NCBI RefSeq assembly: GCF_900129795.1
Contig: NZ_FQWW01000003.1
Location: forward strand, 558,001 to 622,000
Length of the DNA: 64,000 nucleotides
Source: Flavobacterium sp. CF108
GTDB taxonomy: Bacteria; Bacteroidota; Bacteroidia; Flavobacteriales; Flavobacteriaceae
Reading direction: 5' to 3'
Shown here: one piece after another, positions 14,764-62,103 of the stretch
How the letters are laid out: each line of letters begins with the position of its first letter
Position numbering within the stretch: position 1 is the first letter of the stretch
Translations under genes and position numbers: made by a program
The notes under the pieces: model-generated
The model's input: only the letters and a program-made list of their open reading frames with translations
What the model was told of the DNA's origin: nothing
Database searches by the model: none

Positions 14764-17700
14764 TTAATTATGTTTATCTGACTCTAATAACATCGTTTTA
14801 TTAAACTTTCCTTTTTGAACAGGATCTTCAATAAACCATGCCGGATTTCCGTTTTCGTCCCGTCCCAGTTTACTGCCATGAATAGGAGGTTCGTTTGCCA
14901 TTATGGTATATTTCTTTTCTTCAGAATTAGTTTCAAGAAACAGCTGTCCGTTTATTTTTGAAAGGTCAAAAGCTTTTTCTTTTTTATGAGCGCCATTCGA
15001 TCCGTTTGTGCCGACTCGATTTTCAGGATTAAATGTAAGGGCATCAAAATGTTTTACTTTTAAATTGACGAATGAAGTACTTCCGTTTGCAGATGAACTT
15101 TGAAAACCTTGCAGTTGATCTACTTTTTGGCTCAAAAGCTGAATTTGCTGGATAATTTGTTCTAATGAAGTTTGATTTTGATTTACTGATAATGGAGCTT
15201 CATTTGTTAAAACAGAAGGCAGAACAGTTTGGTTAGAAACAATTTCGGTTTCTTTAATTTCAACTTCATTTTCTTCAGGAAGATTTAAATCAATATAATC
15301 TGCCAAAAGCAATGGAGTAGGATATCCTTCATTGAGTTGTCTAAAAGTGATAGGTAAATCAAATTCTTTTTTCAGTCTTCCTGATAATTGAGTGAGCGAT
15401 AAAGAATCCAATCCTAATTCCAGGAAAGTAATAGAAGCCGAATCAGGATCATAAGTTATGCCCGACGCTTCTCTTATAATTTCTGAAATTCTAACTGATA
15501 TAGATTCCTTTCTTGATTCTTTTGTTGTAGCAGGAACACTTTCTGTTTCTGCTGAAATGGCTATATTCGGAATTATATCAGAAACTGTACTTTTTTGAAC
15601 TATGGTTTCAATAACATTTAAAGGCTCAATCCAGCACGGTTTTCGATCAAAAACATAACCCGGTAATTCTATTTTTTGTCTTTGCTGTTCGTTGTAGAAA
15701 GATTTCCAATCTGGGCTTATTCCTTTTGCCCATAATTCACCAACAGTATTTAATAAAGTCGAATATTCATTGTCTTGTTCTTCTTTAGGAAAATTGATGC
15801 TCGAAAAAGCAGGTATAACTTTACCAGCCGCCTGCTGACGTGCCAGCGTAATAAGGGTTTGACCCGGGCCTACTTCTAATAAGATATAATCTTCTAATTC
15901 AAATGCAGTATCCATTGCATCGGCAAATCGTACCGTATTTTTTAAATGGCTAACCCAATAACTTGAACTTGTGGCTTCTGTATCTGTAAGCCAGGTTCCG
16001 GTTGCTGTTGAAATAATAGGAAGCCTCGGAATACTTAGTTTTATTTTTTCTATTTCATCTTTAAAAGAATCTAAAATTGGTTCCATCATAAAGGAGTGAA
16101 AAGCATGACTGGTAAGAAGCAGTTTGTTTGGAATATCCTGCGCATCCAATTCCTGATTAAATAAGGCAATATCCTCTTTTGTACCCGAAGCCACACAAAA
16201 CTGACTTGAATTTATGGCAGCTACAGAAAGTGTATCAGGAATCAGTTCATATAATTTTTCTACCGGAACACGTACCGCTAACATTGATCCGCCGGGAAGT
16301 TCGCTTATCAATTTCCCTCTAATGGCAACAATATGAAGGGCATCTTTTAAACTCATAATTCCGGCTAAATGTGCTGCTGCAAATTCACCAATACTATGAC
16401 CGCAAAGAAAAGTAGGTTTTATTCCCCAGCTCATCCATAACTGCGCCAGTGCATATTCTGTAACAAACAAACTTGGCTGCGTTAAGCGGGTATCTTTTAA
16501 GCGTGCTTCGGCCTCAGGCGAATTTGTTTTTGGATAAAGGATTTCGCGGATATCTAATTTTAAATCCTCCATCAGCAATTCGGCACATTTGTCTACGGCT
16601 TCACGATATACTTTTTCGTTATCATAAAGCGTTTTTCCCATTTGCAGATACTGTGCGCCTTGTCCCGGAAACAGAAATCCCATTTCACTAGGAACACTTT
16701 TTAATATGGAAGATTTAGTACTTTTTGCTTTTAAGGAAATTAATTTTTCGACCGCATCATCTGTAGAATTTGTTACCAAAAAGCTGCGTTGATTAAAACC
16801 CTCTCTCGTAATATTCAATGAATAAGCAATGTCTGCTAAAGGAATATTTCTTGATTTATCAATAAAATGACCCAATGCGTTTTCATAACCTAATAAACTG
16901 TTTTGGCTTTTTGCAGACCACATTAATAATTGAAGCGGTCGGCTAGCTGAAGAGGGTAAAGGTTCTGCTGTATATTCTTCAACAATGGCATGAACGTTTG
17001 TGCTGCCAATTCCGAAAGAACTTACACCGGCTCTTCTGATGCTGTCCGTTTCCCATTCAATTAATTTATTATTGATGTAAAAAGGACTGTTTGCAAAATC
17101 TATATTTGGATTGGGTTCGTTGAAATTAACCATTGGCGGAATCTGTTTATGGCGCATGGCTAATAATACTTTCATTAAACCCGCAACTCCGGCAGCCGCG
17201 GTGGTATGTCCCATATTGCTTTTTATAGAACCTAAAGCGCAATAATTGTTTTTTTCCTGTTTGCCATAGGCTATTTTAAGTCCTTCTATTTCTATTGGAT
17301 CTCCTACGGGAGTTGCAGTTCCGTGGGCTTCCATATAGCTGATTGAGGAGGGGGATATTTGGGCATCATTAAAAGCATTTATAATTGCTCCGGCCTGACC
17401 TCGCGGACTTGGTGCCATAAAACTACCTTTGTCTCCGCCGTCATTATTTACTCCAACTCCTTTAATTACGCCGTATATAATATCGCCATCTTTTTCTGCT
17501 TCTTCCAGTCTTTTTAGCACCACAACTCCGGCGCCATCACTAAAAACAGTTCCTTTTCCGGCAGCGTCAAAAGATCTTGTCGATCCGTCAGGGCTTTTGA
17601 TAAAACCGTCATCATAAAGATGACCGCTGTTTATGGGACACGTTACGCTCGATCCTCCTGCAAGGGCAATATCGCACATGCCGGTTCTTATGGCTTTTAC

Positions 17701-20100
17701 GGCTTCGGCAACAGCTAATAGTGAAGTTGAGCAGGCAGAATGTACGCTAACCGAAGGCCCTTTTAAATTTAAATGATAAGAAGTACGCGGTGCAATAAAA
17801 TCTTTTCCGTTTACGGTATAGATTTGTAATTCGCCTACAGAACTTTTCAATTCTTTGTTGTTGAATATATTATTCTCATAATAGGTATTGATTTCACTTC
17901 CTGTATATACGGCGATGCTTCCTTTATAATGTTTCGGAAGATGTCCCGCTTGTTCCAAAGCTTCAAACGAAATTTCCATAAACACACGTATTTGAGGATC
18001 CATAGCGGCGGCAAGCTGCGGATTTAGTCCGAAGAAATGAGCATCAAATGTTTTAGCCGAAGGTAAAATTCCTCTTGCACCTATATAAAATGGGTCTTTA
18101 CGAAGACTTTCGGGTAAACTTGGATCTAATTCTTCTTTGGTAAATAAAGAAATGGTTTCTTTTCCCTCTTTTAGGTTTTCCCATAATTCTTCTATAGTAT
18201 CAGAACCTGGAAATCTTCCGGCCATACCAATTACAGCAATGTCTCCGGTAGTGGTTTGTTTGCCCGTTTGTTTAAATGCAAATGAATCTTCTTTAGTATT
18301 ATTTTCTTCTAAAGTACTGGCAAGTTCCCTAATGGTAGGATGAATATAGATTTTTGAAACCGATATATCCAGTTCTAATTGCTGTCTCATTAACGAGGTT
18401 ACTTTTTGTGCCAATACAGAACTTCCGCCCATATCAAAAAAATCATCATCGATACCAATGCTTGCTATTTGTAATTCTTCGCTCCAAATTTTTACAATAT
18501 CTTTTTCTAATTGCGTATTCGGTTTTTTGAACGGCGGTGCAGAATCTGGTCTGTTATGTTCAGGAACAGGTAAGTTTTTTTTATCCACTTTTCCATTTGG
18601 AGTAATTGGAAATTCGTCTACCCAGATGTATTTAGATGGTAATAATATTTCGGGCAACACTTTTGAAAGTGCCTCATGAATTGGTTTTTCATCCTGTAAT
18701 TCAGCACTAGATTTTAAATACGCCACCAGTTTATCTTCATTACCAAAATAATTGCTGACGATTACGGAAGATTGTTTTATTTCAGGAATACTATTTAAGG
18801 CGGCTTCTATTTCGCCTAATTCAATACGGTGCCCTCTTATTTTTACCTGATGATCGATGCGGCCTAAGCATTGAAATTCTCCATTTGGGAGTAATTTCCC
18901 CAAGTCTCCGGTGCGATACAAAATAGCGTTTGGTTCTGAAGAAAACGGATCCGGAATAAATTTTTCAGCAGTAAGTTCCGGACGATTCCAGTAACCTTGT
19001 GCGACTCCGTCTCCGCCAATTACGATTTCTCCAATTGTTCCGGTTTCAACGGCTTTTCTTTCTTCATCTAATAAATAAATTTGTGTATTGGCAATTGGAA
19101 AACCAATTGTTATTAGTTCATCATCTGCCTGAATTTGTTTTACTGCCGACCAAATCGTTGTTTCCGTCGGGCCATACATATTCCAAAGTGAATCGCATTT
19201 TGAAATTAATTGGCGGGCCAGGTTTAAGGGCATAGCTTCTCCACCGCATAACGCTTTTAAAGCCAGTGGTGTTTCCCATCCGGAATCAAGAAGCGACTGC
19301 CACGTAGTAGGTGTAGCTTGTAATATTGTAATTTCTTTTTTCTGTAAAAGATCAAGTAAAAGATGACCGTCACGAGTAGTTTCATAATCGGCAAAAACTA
19401 CTGCTGCACCTTTAATTAGCGGCAGAAATAATTCAAGACCAGCAATATCAAAGGAAATTGTGGTGATGGATAATAACCTGTCTTCGATATGTATACCCGG
19501 TTCAATTGCCATACTGAACAGGAAGTTTATTAAATTTTTATGTGTAACAGTTACGCCTTTAGGTTTTCCGGTAGATCCGGAAGTATACATTATATACGCT
19601 GCAGCATCATAAGAAACAGAAGCTGAAACAGGAACTGCAGGATATTGATCAAGTGCAGCTAAAACGTCTTCAATTACTATCGTTTTAGAATAAGCAGGCA
19701 ATGAATTGACAAGTGATTTTGTAGTCAGTAAAAAACTGGCCCCAGAATCTTCGAGCATAAATTCTAAACGAGCCGCCGGAAATTTTGGATCTAATGGTAA
19801 ATAGGCCGCGCCACATTGTAAAATGGCTAAAAGAGAAGCAACTAGGTTAGGAGTTCGCTCCATAGATACAGCAACAATTTGTCCGGAAGATAAACCTTGA
19901 GCTAAAAAGTAATTCGCCAGCTGGTTTGTCATTTTTACTAACGCTGTGTAGGTAACCTGTTCTTCTCCAAATTCAAGTGCTATTGAATTTGGAGATAAAG
20001 CAGCCTGCTCTGCAAAAATCTCCGGTAACGTACTTTTAGGATACGCCATTTTGGTCCAACTTCTCTCGTTGGCTAAATCATTGTTGTTAGCTCTTTTCAT
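14764..20100 (-). CDS. Hybrid NRPS-PKS, A-T-KS-AT-ACP
   Basis: Taking the MKRANNND start (20100), the protein has 1778 residues; an upstream in-frame ATG at 20169 and one at 20049 are less likely or equally short of proof. Domains: adenylation (about 25-500) with no condensation domain in front, so it loads the starter; T domain with S561 in GGSS; ketosynthase from about 619 with C790 in SACSTS plus EAHGTATPVGDP and the KSNMGH His; acyltransferase with S1236 in GHSIGEF and HAFH near 1330, the malonyl-type motif; ACP with S1566 in LGLDSL. There is no KR, DH, ER or MT domain, so the beta-keto group should stay. A long tail holds a short coiled coil and a GSKLGRDENGNPAWFIEDP segment. The adenylation code reads DILQLGMIW, glycine-like. 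Confidence 0.95.
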   Translation of the reverse strand: MKRANNNDLANERSWTKMAYPKSTLPEIFAEQAALSPNSIALEFGEEQVTYTALVKMTNQLANYFLAQGLSSGQIVAVSMERTPNLVASLLAILQCGAAYLPLDPKFPAARLEFMLEDSGASFLLTTKSLVNSLPAYSKTIVIEDVLAALDQYPAVPVSASVSYDAAAYIMYTSGSTGKPKGVTVTHKNLINFLFSMAIEPGIHIEDRLLSITTISFDIAGLELFLPLIKGAAVVFADYETTRDGHLLLDLLQKKEITILQATPTTWQSLLDSGWETPLALKALCGGEAMPLNLARQLISKCDSLWNMYGPTETTIWSAVKQIQADDELITIGFPIANTQIYLLDEERKAVETGTIGEIVIGGDGVAQGYWNRPELTAEKFIPDPFSSEPNAILYRTGDLGKLLPNGEFQCLGRIDHQVKIRGHRIELGEIEAALNSIPEIKQSSVIVSNYFGNEDKLVAYLKSSAELQDEKPIHEALSKVLPEILLPSKYIWVDEFPITPNGKVDKKNLPVPEHNRPDSAPPFKKPNTQLEKDIVKIWSEELQIASIGIDDDFFDMGGSSVLAQKVTSLMRQQLELDISVSKIYIHPTIRELASTLEENNTKEDSFAFKQTGKQTTTGDIAVIGMAGRFPGSDTIEELWENLKEGKETISLFTKEELDPSLPESLRKDPFYIGARGILPSAKTFDAHFFGLNPQLAAAMDPQIRVFMEISFEALEQAGHLPKHYKGSIAVYTGSEINTYYENNIFNNKELKSSVGELQIYTVNGKDFIAPRTSYHLNLKGPSVSVHSACSTSLLAVAEAVKAIRTGMCDIALAGGSSVTCPINSGHLYDDGFIKSPDGSTRSFDAAGKGTVFSDGAGVVVLKRLEEAEKDGDIIYGVIKGVGVNNDGGDKGSFMAPSPRGQAGAIINAFNDAQISPSSISYMEAHGTATPVGDPIEIEGLKIAYGKQEKNNYCALGSIKSNMGHTTAAAGVAGLMKVLLAMRHKQIPPMVNFNEPNPNIDFANSPFYINNKLIEWETDSIRRAGVSSFGIGSTNVHAIVEEYTAEPLPSSASRPLQLLMWSAKSQNSLLGYENALGHFIDKSRNIPLADIAYSLNITREGFNQRSFLVTNSTDDAVEKLISLKAKSTKSSILKSVPSEMGFLFPGQGAQYLQMGKTLYDNEKVYREAVDKCAELLMEDLKLDIREILYPKTNSPEAEARLKDTRLTQPSLFVTEYALAQLWMSWGIKPTFLCGHSIGEFAAAHLAGIMSLKDALHIVAIRGKLISELPGGSMLAVRVPVEKLYELIPDTLSVAAINSSQFCVASGTKEDIALFNQELDAQDIPNKLLLTSHAFHSFMMEPILDSFKDEIEKIKLSIPRLPIISTATGTWLTDTEATSSSYWVSHLKNTVRFADAMDTAFELEDYILLEVGPGQTLITLARQQAAGKVIPAFSSINFPKEEQDNEYSTLLNTVGELWAKGISPDWKSFYNEQQRQKIELPGYVFDRKPCWIEPLNVIETIVQKSTVSDIIPNIAISAETESVPATTKESRKESISVRISEIIREASGITYDPDSASITFLELGLDSLSLTQLSGRLKKEFDLPITFRQLNEGYPTPLLLADYIDLNLPEENEVEIKETEIVSNQTVLPSVLTNEAPLSVNQNQTSLEQIIQQIQLLSQKVDQLQGFQSSSANGSTSFVNLKVKHFDALTFNPENRVGTNGSNGAHKKEKAFDLSKINGQLFLETNSEEKKYTIMANEPPIHGSKLGRDENGNPAWFIEDPVQKGKFNKTMLLESDKHN

Positions 20101-56342: not shown

Positions 56343-58117
56343 TTATTTGTCTGCCAAAGCTGTAATTGCCTGTAAAAACCATGCTGAATGCGGAATCCAT
56401 TGTTCTGTCCAGCGCCATTCGTCATTGCCGCTAACATCCATATTAAAATCAATTCCAGAGCCGTCTCCGTTTCCTTCTTTACCCGTAATTCCATTAGAAA
56501 TTCCGCCCTTTTCAGAACCGTGCCCGTAATTAGAATGCATGTACGGGACATTTTCTTCTCCAAATCCATATAAAAAACATACCGAATACGGATTGCATCC
56601 TAAAATCCATGATAACTGCTGTGAAGCATATAAATCAAGCGGTTTTTTCTCAGTACCATTATTTTTTACAGAAACTACTTTTCCGCCTTCAATTGCAGCT
56701 GTAGCCAGCGAAGCTAATCGGGCATTTTCTCCCTGCCACCACCAACCGGTTTCATTATCATGCGGAATAAAAAAGCCATCTTGTACCTTACCGTTAAACA
56801 AGAAACTTTGGCGTGCATAACCAAACGGATTTTCTACATTATTGGTAACGGCTAAATTATATTCTAAAGCCTTTTTGATCACATTTTTGGCATTCTTTAT
56901 TTCGTTGCTGTCGTTTTCTTTTTTCAAATATCTTGTCAAAGAAACTATTGGTAAACCTGCATCGGCAGCATGCCAAAACGGACGATTTCCGTCATTGCTT
57001 CTAAACCAGCCTTGATCGGTTATTCGGTTTTCGAGATTGTGCGTCCATTTTCTGGCTTCGTCTTTATAGAAATTATCATTGGTAGCAATCCATAACTCAG
57101 TTGCCGCCATTAAAGCACAATAATCATCAATAATATTTTCTTTTCTGTCATCATCATATTTAGTGTTATTTACTAAAAGATGTGCATAAGCACGTTTAGC
57201 TCCGTCTAAATATTGCTGTGATGTAAAATCACCATTTTTTTTCCATTGCGAAATTCTGGCTAACGAAGCAATTGCCATTCCTGCGCCTTCGCGAAAAGCA
57301 CTTTGATATTCGTCTGTAGTAACACTATTGGCCTTTAAACCCACAATTCTTCGGGCAGCAGGATTTTTATCAAAATAACTGAAAACAATCATATAAAAAT
57401 AATCCTCTTTTGATAAACAGCGCATCATATAATCTGCTCCCCAAATGGCTTCGTTATCAAGAGAATCTTTTATTTTCCATTGCGTCAACTGTTTCGGAAT
57501 TGTTTCTGAGGTATTAATAAGCGACCAGGTTACCAAAGGCGTTTGCTGCGGCGATACAAAATTGGCGTAAGCCAAATGCGAAAAATATTTACTCACATCG
57601 CCAGATGCATCACACCATCCGCCGCGAACATCTGCCGTTTTTGTACTGCCGTATAAGATGATGTTTTTGTCGGCTTCGAGTTCTTCCGGAGTATTGGCTC
57701 TTTGTTTATTATAATAGTGAACTATGGATGAAATAACTCGTTTTGCCAGTATATTTTCTTCAATAGAAAAACTTGCGAAGTATAAATCTGATCTGCAATT
57801 TTAAAAGTGATTTTATACGTTCCGGGTTTTTGAAAAGAGGAGAAATCAGCTTTATAAAATTTTTCACCAAGTTTCCAGTCGTCCACGTTTTGCGGTTTCC
57901 CAATTAATGCCGTAAACACTATTTTATGAGTTTGAGTATCAACAACATCAAAAGATGCATTTTCACGAAGATTAGTTGGATATGCTATAATGGCTATTTT
58001 TGGACTTTTCGGATCAAAACCAACCTGATTTACATAAATAATAGGTTTACTGTAAGCCATAACAGAAAGAAACAGCACTATTATGAGATATCTAAATTGC
58101 TGACGGAGTTTTAGCAT
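56343..58117 (-). pseudogene. Glycoside hydrolase family 9 gene broken by a -1 frameshift
   Basis: The first 131 codons (58117-57722) give a signal peptide and an Ig-like CelD-N domain (KPIIYVNQVGFDPKSPKIAII). The reading frame is then lost near 57768, in a run of five A (plus strand); one extra base restores SQVF-SIEENILAKRVISSIVHYYNKQRANT. The second frame runs on through GGWCDASGD near 57600-57630, the GH9 catalytic Asp region, to the stop at 56343 and ends ETQWIPHSAWFL-like (TEQWIPHSAWFLQ) text. Full length would be about 591 residues. It may be a real pseudogene, a slippage-controlled gene or a sequencing error. Family: endoglucanase-like on beta-glucans. Confidence 0.85.
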
Positions 58118-59814: not shown

Positions 59815-62103
59815 ATGTCTGGCACTATGAAAAAAGAAACCTATGCACAACAAACAAATCTTGAAGAAATCCCATACTACTATCCTTCGACCTGGCCTGC
59901 TGATGGGGCAATTGATTTACGCATTCATGATCTTCCTCACCATGAATCATTAATCGAGTGGTGGTATCAAAATTGTCATCTCACTTCTAAAGATGGAAAA
60001 CGACTGTCCTTATTTGCTTCTTTTTTCAGAGTGGCAATAAAAGAGGAAACAACAGGAAACCTGAACTATACCCATTCTGTAATCTGGTCATTGTCAGATA
60101 AAACAGATGGCAAATATTATATGGACTCTCTGGTAGATCCTAGTACACCGGGACAGGTATTAAAAGCGATAAAAAAGGCCGAAGAAAAAAATGAAGGAAG
60201 CAGATGGATTCGCCGTGCATTAAAAGAAGTATATGAAAAAGGAAATATGCCGCTGCCGGACAGACTTCTTAAACAACCAGCAAAAATAGGTTTAAAGAAT
60301 CTCTCCCTTGAATACGATGAAAATTCCTTTAAAAAAGAAGAACAAGGAAATTATCATTTAAAACTCGAAAATCCATCAAACGAAATTTTGTGCAAACTTG
60401 ATTTTATTCCCTTAACAGAACCTGTACGACATGGAGATGATGGAGTAGTAAGCGGGATAAGGAAAGAAGAAATGTTTTATTATTTTATTCCAAAGTGTGA
60501 GGTGAGTGGAGAAATTCAGATAGGCAATACGGTTTATGAAGTAGAAGGGAACGGTTGGTACGACCATGAATTTAGCAGACCTGCTGATGAAACTTCCACA
60601 TTTGAATTTAAGCATGAAATGGACTGGAACTGGATTGCACTTCAGTTAGACAATGGATATCAGTTATCTGGTTATGATCTTTTTGATAATACAAAAAATG
60701 GCGAACACGCCGGAGGTACTATAATTATCATTGATCCCGATGGTAAAAATACAAGCGTAAAACAGTACTCATTTTTACCCGAAAAGTATTGGACAAGCGC
60801 CAGAACTTTTATATCCTATCCCGTTTCCTGGAAAATAGAAATACCACAGTTTAATATTTTTCTTTCTATAACCGCAGATTTTCCAGAGCAGGAATTTATT
60901 ACAATTCTTTCTGCACCCGCATTTTGGGAAGGCAGTGTAAGTGCTGCAGGAAAATTTATGGAAACAGAAGTTTCTGGTAACGGATATATTGAAAGAAATG
61001 GATTTAGTACCAAAACAAATATTGAAAGCTTCTTAAAAGCAGTAGGTGACACCACCCAAAAATCGGTAGAATCTTTGCTTCCCTTAAATCCTACTGACGA
61101 TCAATTTTACAAGTTGGTTAATAGTCCGTTGGGAGTTTCTTTTTTGAGCGCTGCAGATAAAGAGCAATATGTCTCGTCTGTTATAAAACCTATAAGGGAA
61201 ATCGTAGACAGAAGTAAAAAGGCCTGGCGTTCTTATATATTTTTAGCTTGTATAGATAGTGTTGGAGGAAACTCTCAGCCGTTTATCGACTGGCTGGCAA
61301 TGCCGGAGTTCATACATACAGGATCCTTAATTGTAGATGATGTTCAGGACAGATCTGACACACGCAGAGGAGGCACCGCTTTGCATCATCTTTATGGTGA
61401 AGCACTTGCAATTAATGCCGGTAATGCCAGTTATTTTATTTCAGAATTATTTATGCATGATCCTAAACTTCCGGATGATATTCGGATAAAAGTATATGAA
61501 CTTTATTTTGAAATGATGCGTGCAGCACATGCAGGTCAGGCAATGGATATCAGCGGACTTCATGATCTTATGCCAGAGGCTGTTAACAAGGGAAATAGTT
61601 CAACGCTTGAGAATAGAATTTATACTATACACAGATTAAAAACTGCAACTCCCGCCTGTACATTAGCCAAGCTGGGAGGATTAATAGGAGGTGGAAAACC
61701 TGAAGAAATTGAGGCATTAAGCAGTTTTTTAGAAGCAATAGGTGTTGCTTACCAAATAATGGATGATGTACTGAATTTGCAAGGCTATGAAAATAATCTT
61801 AAAGATAAAGGAGAGGATATTACAGCCGGAAAAATAACCATGCCAGTGGCAAAAGCAATGGGATTAATGCCTTTAAAGCAGCGCGAATATGTATGGGAAA
61901 CCATTCAGACACTGCCAACGGACAGAGCGGTAATTGCATCTGTAATTCATTTATTGCAAGATTGCGGAGCCATCGAAGCCTGCAGACAAGAAGCCGATGA
62001 ACTTGTAGAAACCGCATGGGAAAAATTGGATAAGCTCCTGCCAGATTCCTTTTTTAAAGTTAGATTACGGGCTTTTGGCTGGTATGCCTTAAAAAAGGAA
62101 TGA
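59815..62103 (+). CDS. Fusion of CrtC/AttH lipocalin-like domain and polyprenyl diphosphate synthase
   Basis: A 762-residue protein from ATG 59815; ATG 59827 and TTG 59797 are alternatives. The first half (about 35-400) has ESLIEWWYQNCHL (47-56), YYFIPKCEVSGEI, GNGWYDHEFSRP (245-256) and MDWNWIALQLDNGYQLSGYDLFD, hallmarks of the CrtC/AttH hydroxyneurosporene-synthase-like family, a lipocalin-like double barrel. The second half (about 415-760) is an all-helical trans-isoprenyl diphosphate synthase: HTGSLIVDDVQDRSDTRRG with DDxxD at 508-512, and YQIMDDVLNLQGYENNLKDKGEDITAGKITMP with DDVLN at 650-654, where the last Asp is Asn. One protein could build a polyprenyl diphosphate and hydrate or cyclise it. 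No signal peptide. Confidence 0.88.
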   Translation: MSGTMKKETYAQQTNLEEIPYYYPSTWPADGAIDLRIHDLPHHESLIEWWYQNCHLTSKDGKRLSLFASFFRVAIKEETTGNLNYTHSVIWSLSDKTDGKYYMDSLVDPSTPGQVLKAIKKAEEKNEGSRWIRRALKEVYEKGNMPLPDRLLKQPAKIGLKNLSLEYDENSFKKEEQGNYHLKLENPSNEILCKLDFIPLTEPVRHGDDGVVSGIRKEEMFYYFIPKCEVSGEIQIGNTVYEVEGNGWYDHEFSRPADETSTFEFKHEMDWNWIALQLDNGYQLSGYDLFDNTKNGEHAGGTIIIIDPDGKNTSVKQYSFLPEKYWTSARTFISYPVSWKIEIPQFNIFLSITADFPEQEFITILSAPAFWEGSVSAAGKFMETEVSGNGYIERNGFSTKTNIESFLKAVGDTTQKSVESLLPLNPTDDQFYKLVNSPLGVSFLSAADKEQYVSSVIKPIREIVDRSKKAWRSYIFLACIDSVGGNSQPFIDWLAMPEFIHTGSLIVDDVQDRSDTRRGGTALHHLYGEALAINAGNASYFISELFMHDPKLPDDIRIKVYELYFEMMRAAHAGQAMDISGLHDLMPEAVNKGNSSTLENRIYTIHRLKTATPACTLAKLGGLIGGGKPEEIEALSSFLEAIGVAYQIMDDVLNLQGYENNLKDKGEDITAGKITMPVAKAMGLMPLKQREYVWETIQTLPTDRAVIASVIHLLQDCGAIEACRQEADELVETAWEKLDKLLPDSFFKVRLRAFGWYALKKE

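Follow-up and report, generated by a model that had tools for sequence, protein, structure and literature searches.

In a 64,000-nucleotide stretch of Flavobacterium sp. CF108 (contig NZ_FQWW01000003.1, positions 558,001 to 622,000; hereafter, the window), one gene at 59815..62103 on the forward strand encodes a 762-residue protein in which a double β-barrel of the CrtC/AttH type is joined to a trans-polyprenyl diphosphate synthase. We give a probability of roughly one half to the view that this fusion is a two-module enzyme which, in one chain, makes a prenyl lipid of C20 or longer and hydrates or cyclises it.

The frame is uninterrupted from the ATG at 59815 to the stop at 62103; a TTG codon 18 bases upstream would be an alternative start, yielding 768 residues. 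Three Pfam domains were matched well beyond chance: CrtC (PF07143, the N-terminal lipocalin domain; residues 47-254, 59953..60576, 71.9 bits against a cut-off of 22.5), Lipocalin_9 (PF17186; residues 270-396, 60622..61002, 81.3 bits against 26.2) and polyprenyl_synt (PF00348; residues 457-712, 61183..61950, 149.7 bits against 27), all on the forward strand. The initial annotation, made from the letters alone, had read a CrtC/AttH-like domain and a prenyl synthase in a single frame, and these matches bear it out. A chance or frameshift artefact was rejected, the frame being open both here and in the relatives. A scan for promoters and terminators was uninformative (12 promoter-like sites vs 10.2 expected; one terminator-like site vs 2.0).

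An AlphaFold2 model built from 17 aligned sequences (mean predicted local distance difference test score, pLDDT, 77; predicted template modelling score 0.74; poorly modelled at residues 513-536, next to the first Asp-rich motif) consists of a double β-barrel and a helical bundle of the prenyl-synthase type (residues ~403-758), the two domains that such a prediction had been expected to confirm. When the parts were superposed with VIA-align, residues 24-398 matched AttH (2ich) with Z 34.1 and a root-mean-square deviation (rmsd) of 2.5 over 301 residues, residues 29-401 matched kievitone hydratase (Z 31.0, rmsd 3.1, 299 residues), and residues 400-762, all-helical in the model, matched the geranylgeranyl diphosphate (GGPP) synthase 1wy0 (Z 30.9, rmsd 3.6, 316 residues). 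A profile of the barrel, run against the PDB up to an E value of 10, returned only two distinct sequences, AttH (1.1e-32) and kievitone hydratase (1.4e-10), while Foldseek also found 25-phosphosteroid lyase (9g4c; E 2e-8, rank 41). The fusion has both the two lipocalin-like barrels and the motifs common to the AttH/kievitone-hydratase superfamily. An all-helical domain of the class II cyclase type was not found in the N-terminal half, where residues 47-395 are mainly β strands in the model; no search for a DXDD motif was made.

Conservation was counted in an alignment of 59 fusions, of which four are partial, the denominator being the rows that have a residue at the position concerned. Outside these rows are L019, L020, L021 and L023, the fusions of genomes G487, G574, G591 and G619, and loci L141-L143; L176, L177 and L178 were set aside. 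The first Asp-rich motif of the synthase, DDVQD (residues 508-512; 61336..61350), retains D508, D509 and D512 in 59/59 rows. In the second, DDVLN (residues 650-654; 61762..61776), D650 and D651 are kept in 58/58 rows and N654 in 56/58, with Asp at the last position in L136 and L175. The initial annotation had correctly noted this departure from DDxxD, which may bear on chain length or product; DDxxN is, however, the norm of the family and so marks no change in this particular protein, and a local defect was rejected on the same ground. Because the free-standing synthases L177 and L178 (Streptomyces; the next-best plasmid matches) have DDxxD, the Asn goes with the fusion. The Nitrosomonas row L176 has Ser at the end of the second motif and Gln at position 469. 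It comes from a Nitrosomonas stercoris plasmid (L176, 7359-10864), where a 649-residue prenyl synthase, its N-terminal half without any Pfam match, is followed by a flavin-monooxygenase-type gene.

Other residues of the synthase site are equally constant. The K469-x-W-R472 segment (61219..61230) and H501 are candidates for the site of isopentenyl diphosphate (IPP; K469 in 58/59 rows, Arg in one; R472 and H501 in 59/59), and R517, R518 (both 59/59) and K609 (58/58) for the diphosphate site, by the roles of such residues in prenyl synthases. Since these residues are conserved, the C-terminal module probably still elongates chains. As a usual rule, the residues four and five positions before the first Asp-rich motif tell the chain length of the product. 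Here they are Ser and Gly (58/59 rows each), not aromatic, which by that rule points to a predicted product of C20 or longer.

In the barrel, D250 (60562..60564), a candidate general acid within a W248-Y-D-H motif, occurs in 57/58 rows. W271 and W273, with which the Lipocalin_9 domain opens, are present in 58/58, W50 in 57/57 and W49 in 55/57. The W-x-D and W-x-W motifs align with those of kievitone hydratase (WYD and W-x-W). To map the barrel onto the CrtC enzyme RgCrtC, we used a carotenoid 1,2-hydratase encoded on the photosynthesis plasmid of Roseobacter litoralis; its motifs H-x-W, Y-x-D and W-x-W are spaced like H239/W241, Y266/D268 and W283/W285 of RgCrtC. By this alignment and spacing, D268, W283 and W285 correspond to D250, W271 and W273. 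Horz et al. (PMC12402844) list D268, W110, W283 and W285 as critical residues of RgCrtC and describe hydration of more than 20 C12-C20 terpenes, including farnesol (17%) and geranylgeraniol (4%). According to Hiseni et al. (PMC4717167), His239, Trp241, Tyr266 and Asp268 are each essential in CrtC, with Asp268 proposed as the acid by analogy to squalene-hopene cyclase.

The fusion is widely but thinly spread. A scan of 84,980 species genomes with six peptide patterns, which clearly misses relatives, gave 21 loci, 14 of them in Flavobacterium. The closest named relatives of the window gene are Flavobacterium species (92% identity in F. panici), followed by a metagenome-assembled genome (MAG) of Filimonas (71%), Myxococcales and other MAGs (42-43%; L017, L022 and, in part, L023), a Thermoplasmata MAG fragment ended by the contig edge (38%) and Sinisalibacter (27% over residues 31-752); L025 matched in the synthase part only. 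Within the window's class, 389/395 genomes gave matches, nearly all through ordinary synthases; fusion-type matches occurred in six (G000, G101, G100, G112, G068 and, as a C-terminal piece, G183). The fusion was found in 6/249 genomes of the genus Flavobacterium, one of them (G619) with the gene split in two frames, in 38/282 genomes of the Myxococcota-type phylum (that of the uncultured Myxococcales genome of L017) and in an alphaproteobacterium. Among 267 plasmid records with any match, three cover at least 80% of the query, two from Tolypothrix (36%) and one from Streptomyces canus (27%). Two loci with the gene broken may be recorded here. In Flavobacterium sp. Root935 (L019, 10007-12279), the gene falls into two frames that part near the barrel-synthase linker, similarly to the split in G619. 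In the MAG Flavobacterium UBA7680 (L020, 3551-10435), the place where the fusion should begin is occupied by type VI secretion genes (for TssC, weakly matched TssB, a gp25-like protein and an AAA protein of the ClpV type), and the AAA frame continues into the last 144 fusion residues, through either the insertion of an island or an assembly chimera.

Trees of the N- and C-terminal domains (55 rows; without L059, L138, L139, L140, L176, L177 and L178) shared 23 of 52 splits, as compared to a mean of 0.21 and a maximum of 3 with shuffled names, implying that the two domains were inherited together. On these sequence comparisons the fusion is real and old, and the conserved architecture, whose absence would have spoken against the initial proposal, recurs in several phyla. 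The tree of the C-terminal domain nests the rows from Bacteroidota with the Myxococcota-type ones and places Filimonas among Flavobacterium; thus the gene, which is an accessory one of patchy occurrence, has probably moved between phyla. The root of this tree is uncertain, the branches of L024, L175 and L136 are very long, and the tree tool warned of long branches joining, so the groupings L134-L136, L135 with L137/L174, and L057 with the Flavobacterium rows may be false.

How would such a protein work? The C-terminal module would condense an allylic diphosphate with IPP to give a chain of C20 or longer, and since the barrel sits in one chain with the synthase, its likely substrate would be the chain just made. 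The barrel would take the far (dimethylallyl) end, where D250 would protonate the last double bond; W271 and W273, perhaps with W49/W50, would hold the resulting cation. Its capture by water would make the omega end a tertiary alcohol, the alternative being ring closure. We favour protonation at D250 because the characterised members of the superfamily, namely CrtC, kievitone hydratase and (by fold) 25-phosphosteroid lyase, act on a tertiary centre where an isoprenoid chain ends. Partner or fused enzymes might, in some relatives, go on to glycosylate, sulfate or oxidise the product; the gene in Flavobacterium has no such tailoring partner alongside.

The gene context of the relatives bears on this point. 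The set comprised 43 loci (without L019, L020, L021, L023, L025, the window and the Flavobacterium loci), with Pfam run on chosen neighbours. In G112 (L058), a genome of the window's class, the order is glycosyltransferase, fusion, a lipase-maturation-factor (LMF1) gene and two cytochrome P450 genes; the glycosyltransferase overlaps the start of the fusion, and the downstream gaps are +6, +3 and -16 bases. In G892 (L134), a kinase of the EcKL/APH type, a P450, GDP-mannose 4,6-dehydratase and GDP-fucose synthase precede the fusion (gaps of -84 to +12 bases), with a glycosyltransferase after it (-27). Between the two loci, the glycosyltransferases are 32% identical and the P450s 32-34%. Both glycosyltransferases resemble diglucosyl-diacylglycerol synthase and MurG, which have lipid acceptors, at scores far below the NCBIfam cut-offs. 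Order-level searches around these two loci returned only genomes already known (1/26 and 1/5).

On a plasmid of Tolypothrix PCC 7601 (outside the set) and in G763, the fusion is extended to a 1509-residue chain of sulfotransferase, glycosyltransferase (GT28/EryCIII-type), CrtC, Lipocalin_9 and polyprenyl synthase. The two proteins are 36% identical over 1532 columns, and a fused glycosyltransferase was met in one of the 43 loci. The G112, G892, Tolypothrix and G763 loci fall with the Flavobacterium fusions in one 21-row group of the C-domain tree, whose support (Shimodaira-Hasegawa-like approximate likelihood-ratio test, SH-aLRT, 97) comes from a quick method and with long branches inside the group. 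Elsewhere, glycosyltransferase genes of Group 1/4 are placed two or three genes before the fusion in L059 and L136, and adjoin it on the other strand in the close kin L126, L127 and L129 (Pfam run on L127). GDP-mannose dehydratase and GDP-fucose synthase genes precede the L024 fusion. In the other loci no terpenoid tailoring genes were seen, with part of the neighbours scanned. The initial annotation had called the product cryptic, and for the window this stands; in the relatives, hints of glycosylation, sulfation and P450 oxidation qualify it. Glycosyltransferases and sulfotransferases would fit a product bearing a hydroxyl group, as far as this minority of loci can suggest.

Two further observations concern the neighbours. 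A protein of ~205 residues adjoins the fusion in 17/43 loci (e.g., L017, 2583-3200; L133, 9357-10007), directly downstream on the same strand in 14 of the 17. It had no match in Pfam (L017, L124 and L112) or NCBIfam (four members), and its AlphaFold model (pLDDT 49) was not used. In L115, a lycopene cyclase gene (17168-18334, reverse strand) lies ~6.4 kb from a Myxococcota-type fusion.

Several of our data weigh against a hydrating or cyclising barrel. In the S. canus row, position 250 is Glu and position 49 is Ile. Among the four essential CrtC residues of Hiseni et al., the fusion retains only the Asp: H239, W241 and Y266 of RgCrtC are replaced by E219, F221 and W248 (position 219 being Asp in 44/59 rows and Glu in the window protein). 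A close kinship with CrtC was rejected, the barrel profile matching true CrtC at 2.6 bits with an hhalign probability of 6%. When true CrtC was sought among the PF07143 matches in the family of the L024 genome, AttH-type proteins were found instead; 30 of these scored 74-119 bits on the barrel profile, and all six that were compared have both W-x-D and W-x-W, implying that these motifs mark the superfamily rather than a hydratase or cyclase reaction. The assignment to CrtC/AttH thus stands as regards PF07143, the Asp and the W-x-W, but AttH and kievitone hydratase are closer to the barrel than true CrtC is. Regarding the context, operons with both a P450 and a glycosyltransferase occur in only 2/43 loci; the best NCBIfam match of their P450s is a P450 of ribosomally synthesised and post-translationally modified peptides (ApyO), far below cut-off, the next ones, also far below, including terpene P450 models (albaflavenone and pentalenene oxygenase); and the GDP-fucose genes beside the L024 fusion could be part of a polysaccharide locus.

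The same AttH-type proteins lend some weight to the main rival explanation, though a somewhat unlikely one, that the barrel does no chemistry and is a lipid-binding module handing the prenyl product over to a membrane enzyme or an exporter. The best structural match is AttH, whose function is unsettled, and the plasmids of both Tolypothrix and S. canus carry ATP-binding cassette (ABC) transporter genes beside the fusion. On the other hand, the conservation of D250, W271 and W273 is stricter than a greasy pocket would call for, and the second-best match is a hydratase.

It is improbable that the protein is a carotenoid enzyme, a fusion of the CrtE-CrtC type making GGPP and hydrating a carotenoid. 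The R. litoralis plasmid does carry, side by side, the carotenoid 1,2-hydratase, crtD and a polyprenyl synthetase gene (which we take for crtE), the host genome has one phytoene-synthase-family gene, and there is the lycopene cyclase gene of L115; but the phytoene synthase is on contig C13 and the fusion on C15, the barrel is far from true CrtC, and so few of the Flavobacterium genomes have the fusion. Even less credit is due to the idea that the protein is an ordinary polyprenyl diphosphate synthase, supplying quinones or lipid carriers, and that its N-terminal extension does not matter. Such a role would agree with the retained synthase residues and with public records, in which these genes appear simply as 'polyprenyl synthetase family protein'. 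However, the genome has three further prenyl-synthase genes, which could cover housekeeping, the distribution is patchy, and the motif residues of the barrel are as conserved as those of the synthase.

The host genome (5.61 Mb) has four polyprenyl-synthase matches, the fusion being one, and a single CrtC-domain match, again the fusion; none of 14 control genomes has any. Its two P450 matches are both on contigs other than that of the fusion. The Pfam families next to the fusion in the window are a fatty-acid desaturase, GH9, ThuA, PLA1 and an S15 peptidase, whose gene converges on that of the fusion. No terpene-type gene is among these neighbours, as the initial annotation had stated, and the fusion stands alone. 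The desaturase gene ends 297 bases upstream, and a homologue occurs in 10/21 loci compared (window included), at varying distances and sometimes beyond the far side of the fusion; because its position differs between loci, and given the gap here, we rejected it as an operon partner. The GH9 cellulase-type gene (56343-58117, reverse strand) is split into two frames (131 + 417 residues), as opposed to one frame of 591 residues in the close relatives L008, L016 and L020. A large polysaccharide-type locus at 26537-51296 ends ~8.5 kb before the fusion; the 11 open reading frames scanned include a nucleotidyl transferase with a ManC-like helix, a UDP/GDP-sugar dehydrogenase, a GDP-mannose-dehydratase-family protein, glycosyltransferases and a bacterial sugar transferase.

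If the substrate of the barrel is the chain that its neighbouring domain makes, the fusion would be a protonation-driven terpene enzyme with a fold, the double barrel, that is not known among terpene cyclases. Tentatively, one may go further and see a new terpene-forming class, in which a double barrel starts carbocation chemistry on a prenyl diphosphate of its own chain, extended in some bacteria to one long chain in which prenyl synthase, barrel, glycosyltransferase and sulfotransferase would work as an assembly line for glycosylated, sulfated terpenoid lipids; this is possible, although the odds are against it. A barrel acting on the product of its own chain would point to terpenoid lipids so far overlooked in genomes of the Myxococcota type, of Bacteroidota, cyanobacteria and Streptomyces, would open a route from simple precursors to omega-hydroxylated prenyl chains, and would give AttH-type proteins a testable chemistry. 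The uninformative name in public records makes the fusion easily passed over, and neither it nor the five-domain form nor their spread was found in the open-licence literature of PMC, among the matches listed. What is already known is the union of a prenyl synthase and a protonation-driven cyclase in one chain, as well as hydratases of the CrtC type.

Compared with these systems, the fusion takes a position of its own. Its barrel is closest, by both fold and sequence, to AttH (Nitrosomonas europaea NE1406), which is free-standing. CrtC has in common with it PF07143, the acid Asp and the W-x-W, whereas the essential His, Trp and Tyr become Glu/Asp, Phe and Trp; CrtC too is free-standing, though on the R. 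litoralis plasmid the synthetase gene is nearby. 25-Phosphosteroid lyase, likened to the barrel by fold only, belongs to steroid degradation; PMC11061730 and PMC8449060 describe the removal of phosphate from a tertiary carbon at the isoprenoid chain end, with the gene still unknown there. Kievitone hydratase (7a0q, 7a0t), which according to PMC5805349 adds water at the end of a prenyl group, has the same double-barrel fold and motifs, but it is a fungal protein (Nectria haematococca), 16% identical in the structural alignment, and is not joined to a prenyl synthase. The bifunctional copalyl diphosphate synthase PvCPS (9q3i, 8v0f), matched by the fusion profile, is in turn a one-chain enzyme. 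There, a prenyl synthase is combined with a protonation-driven class II cyclase whose protonating domain is all-helical, as opposed to the β double barrel of our model.

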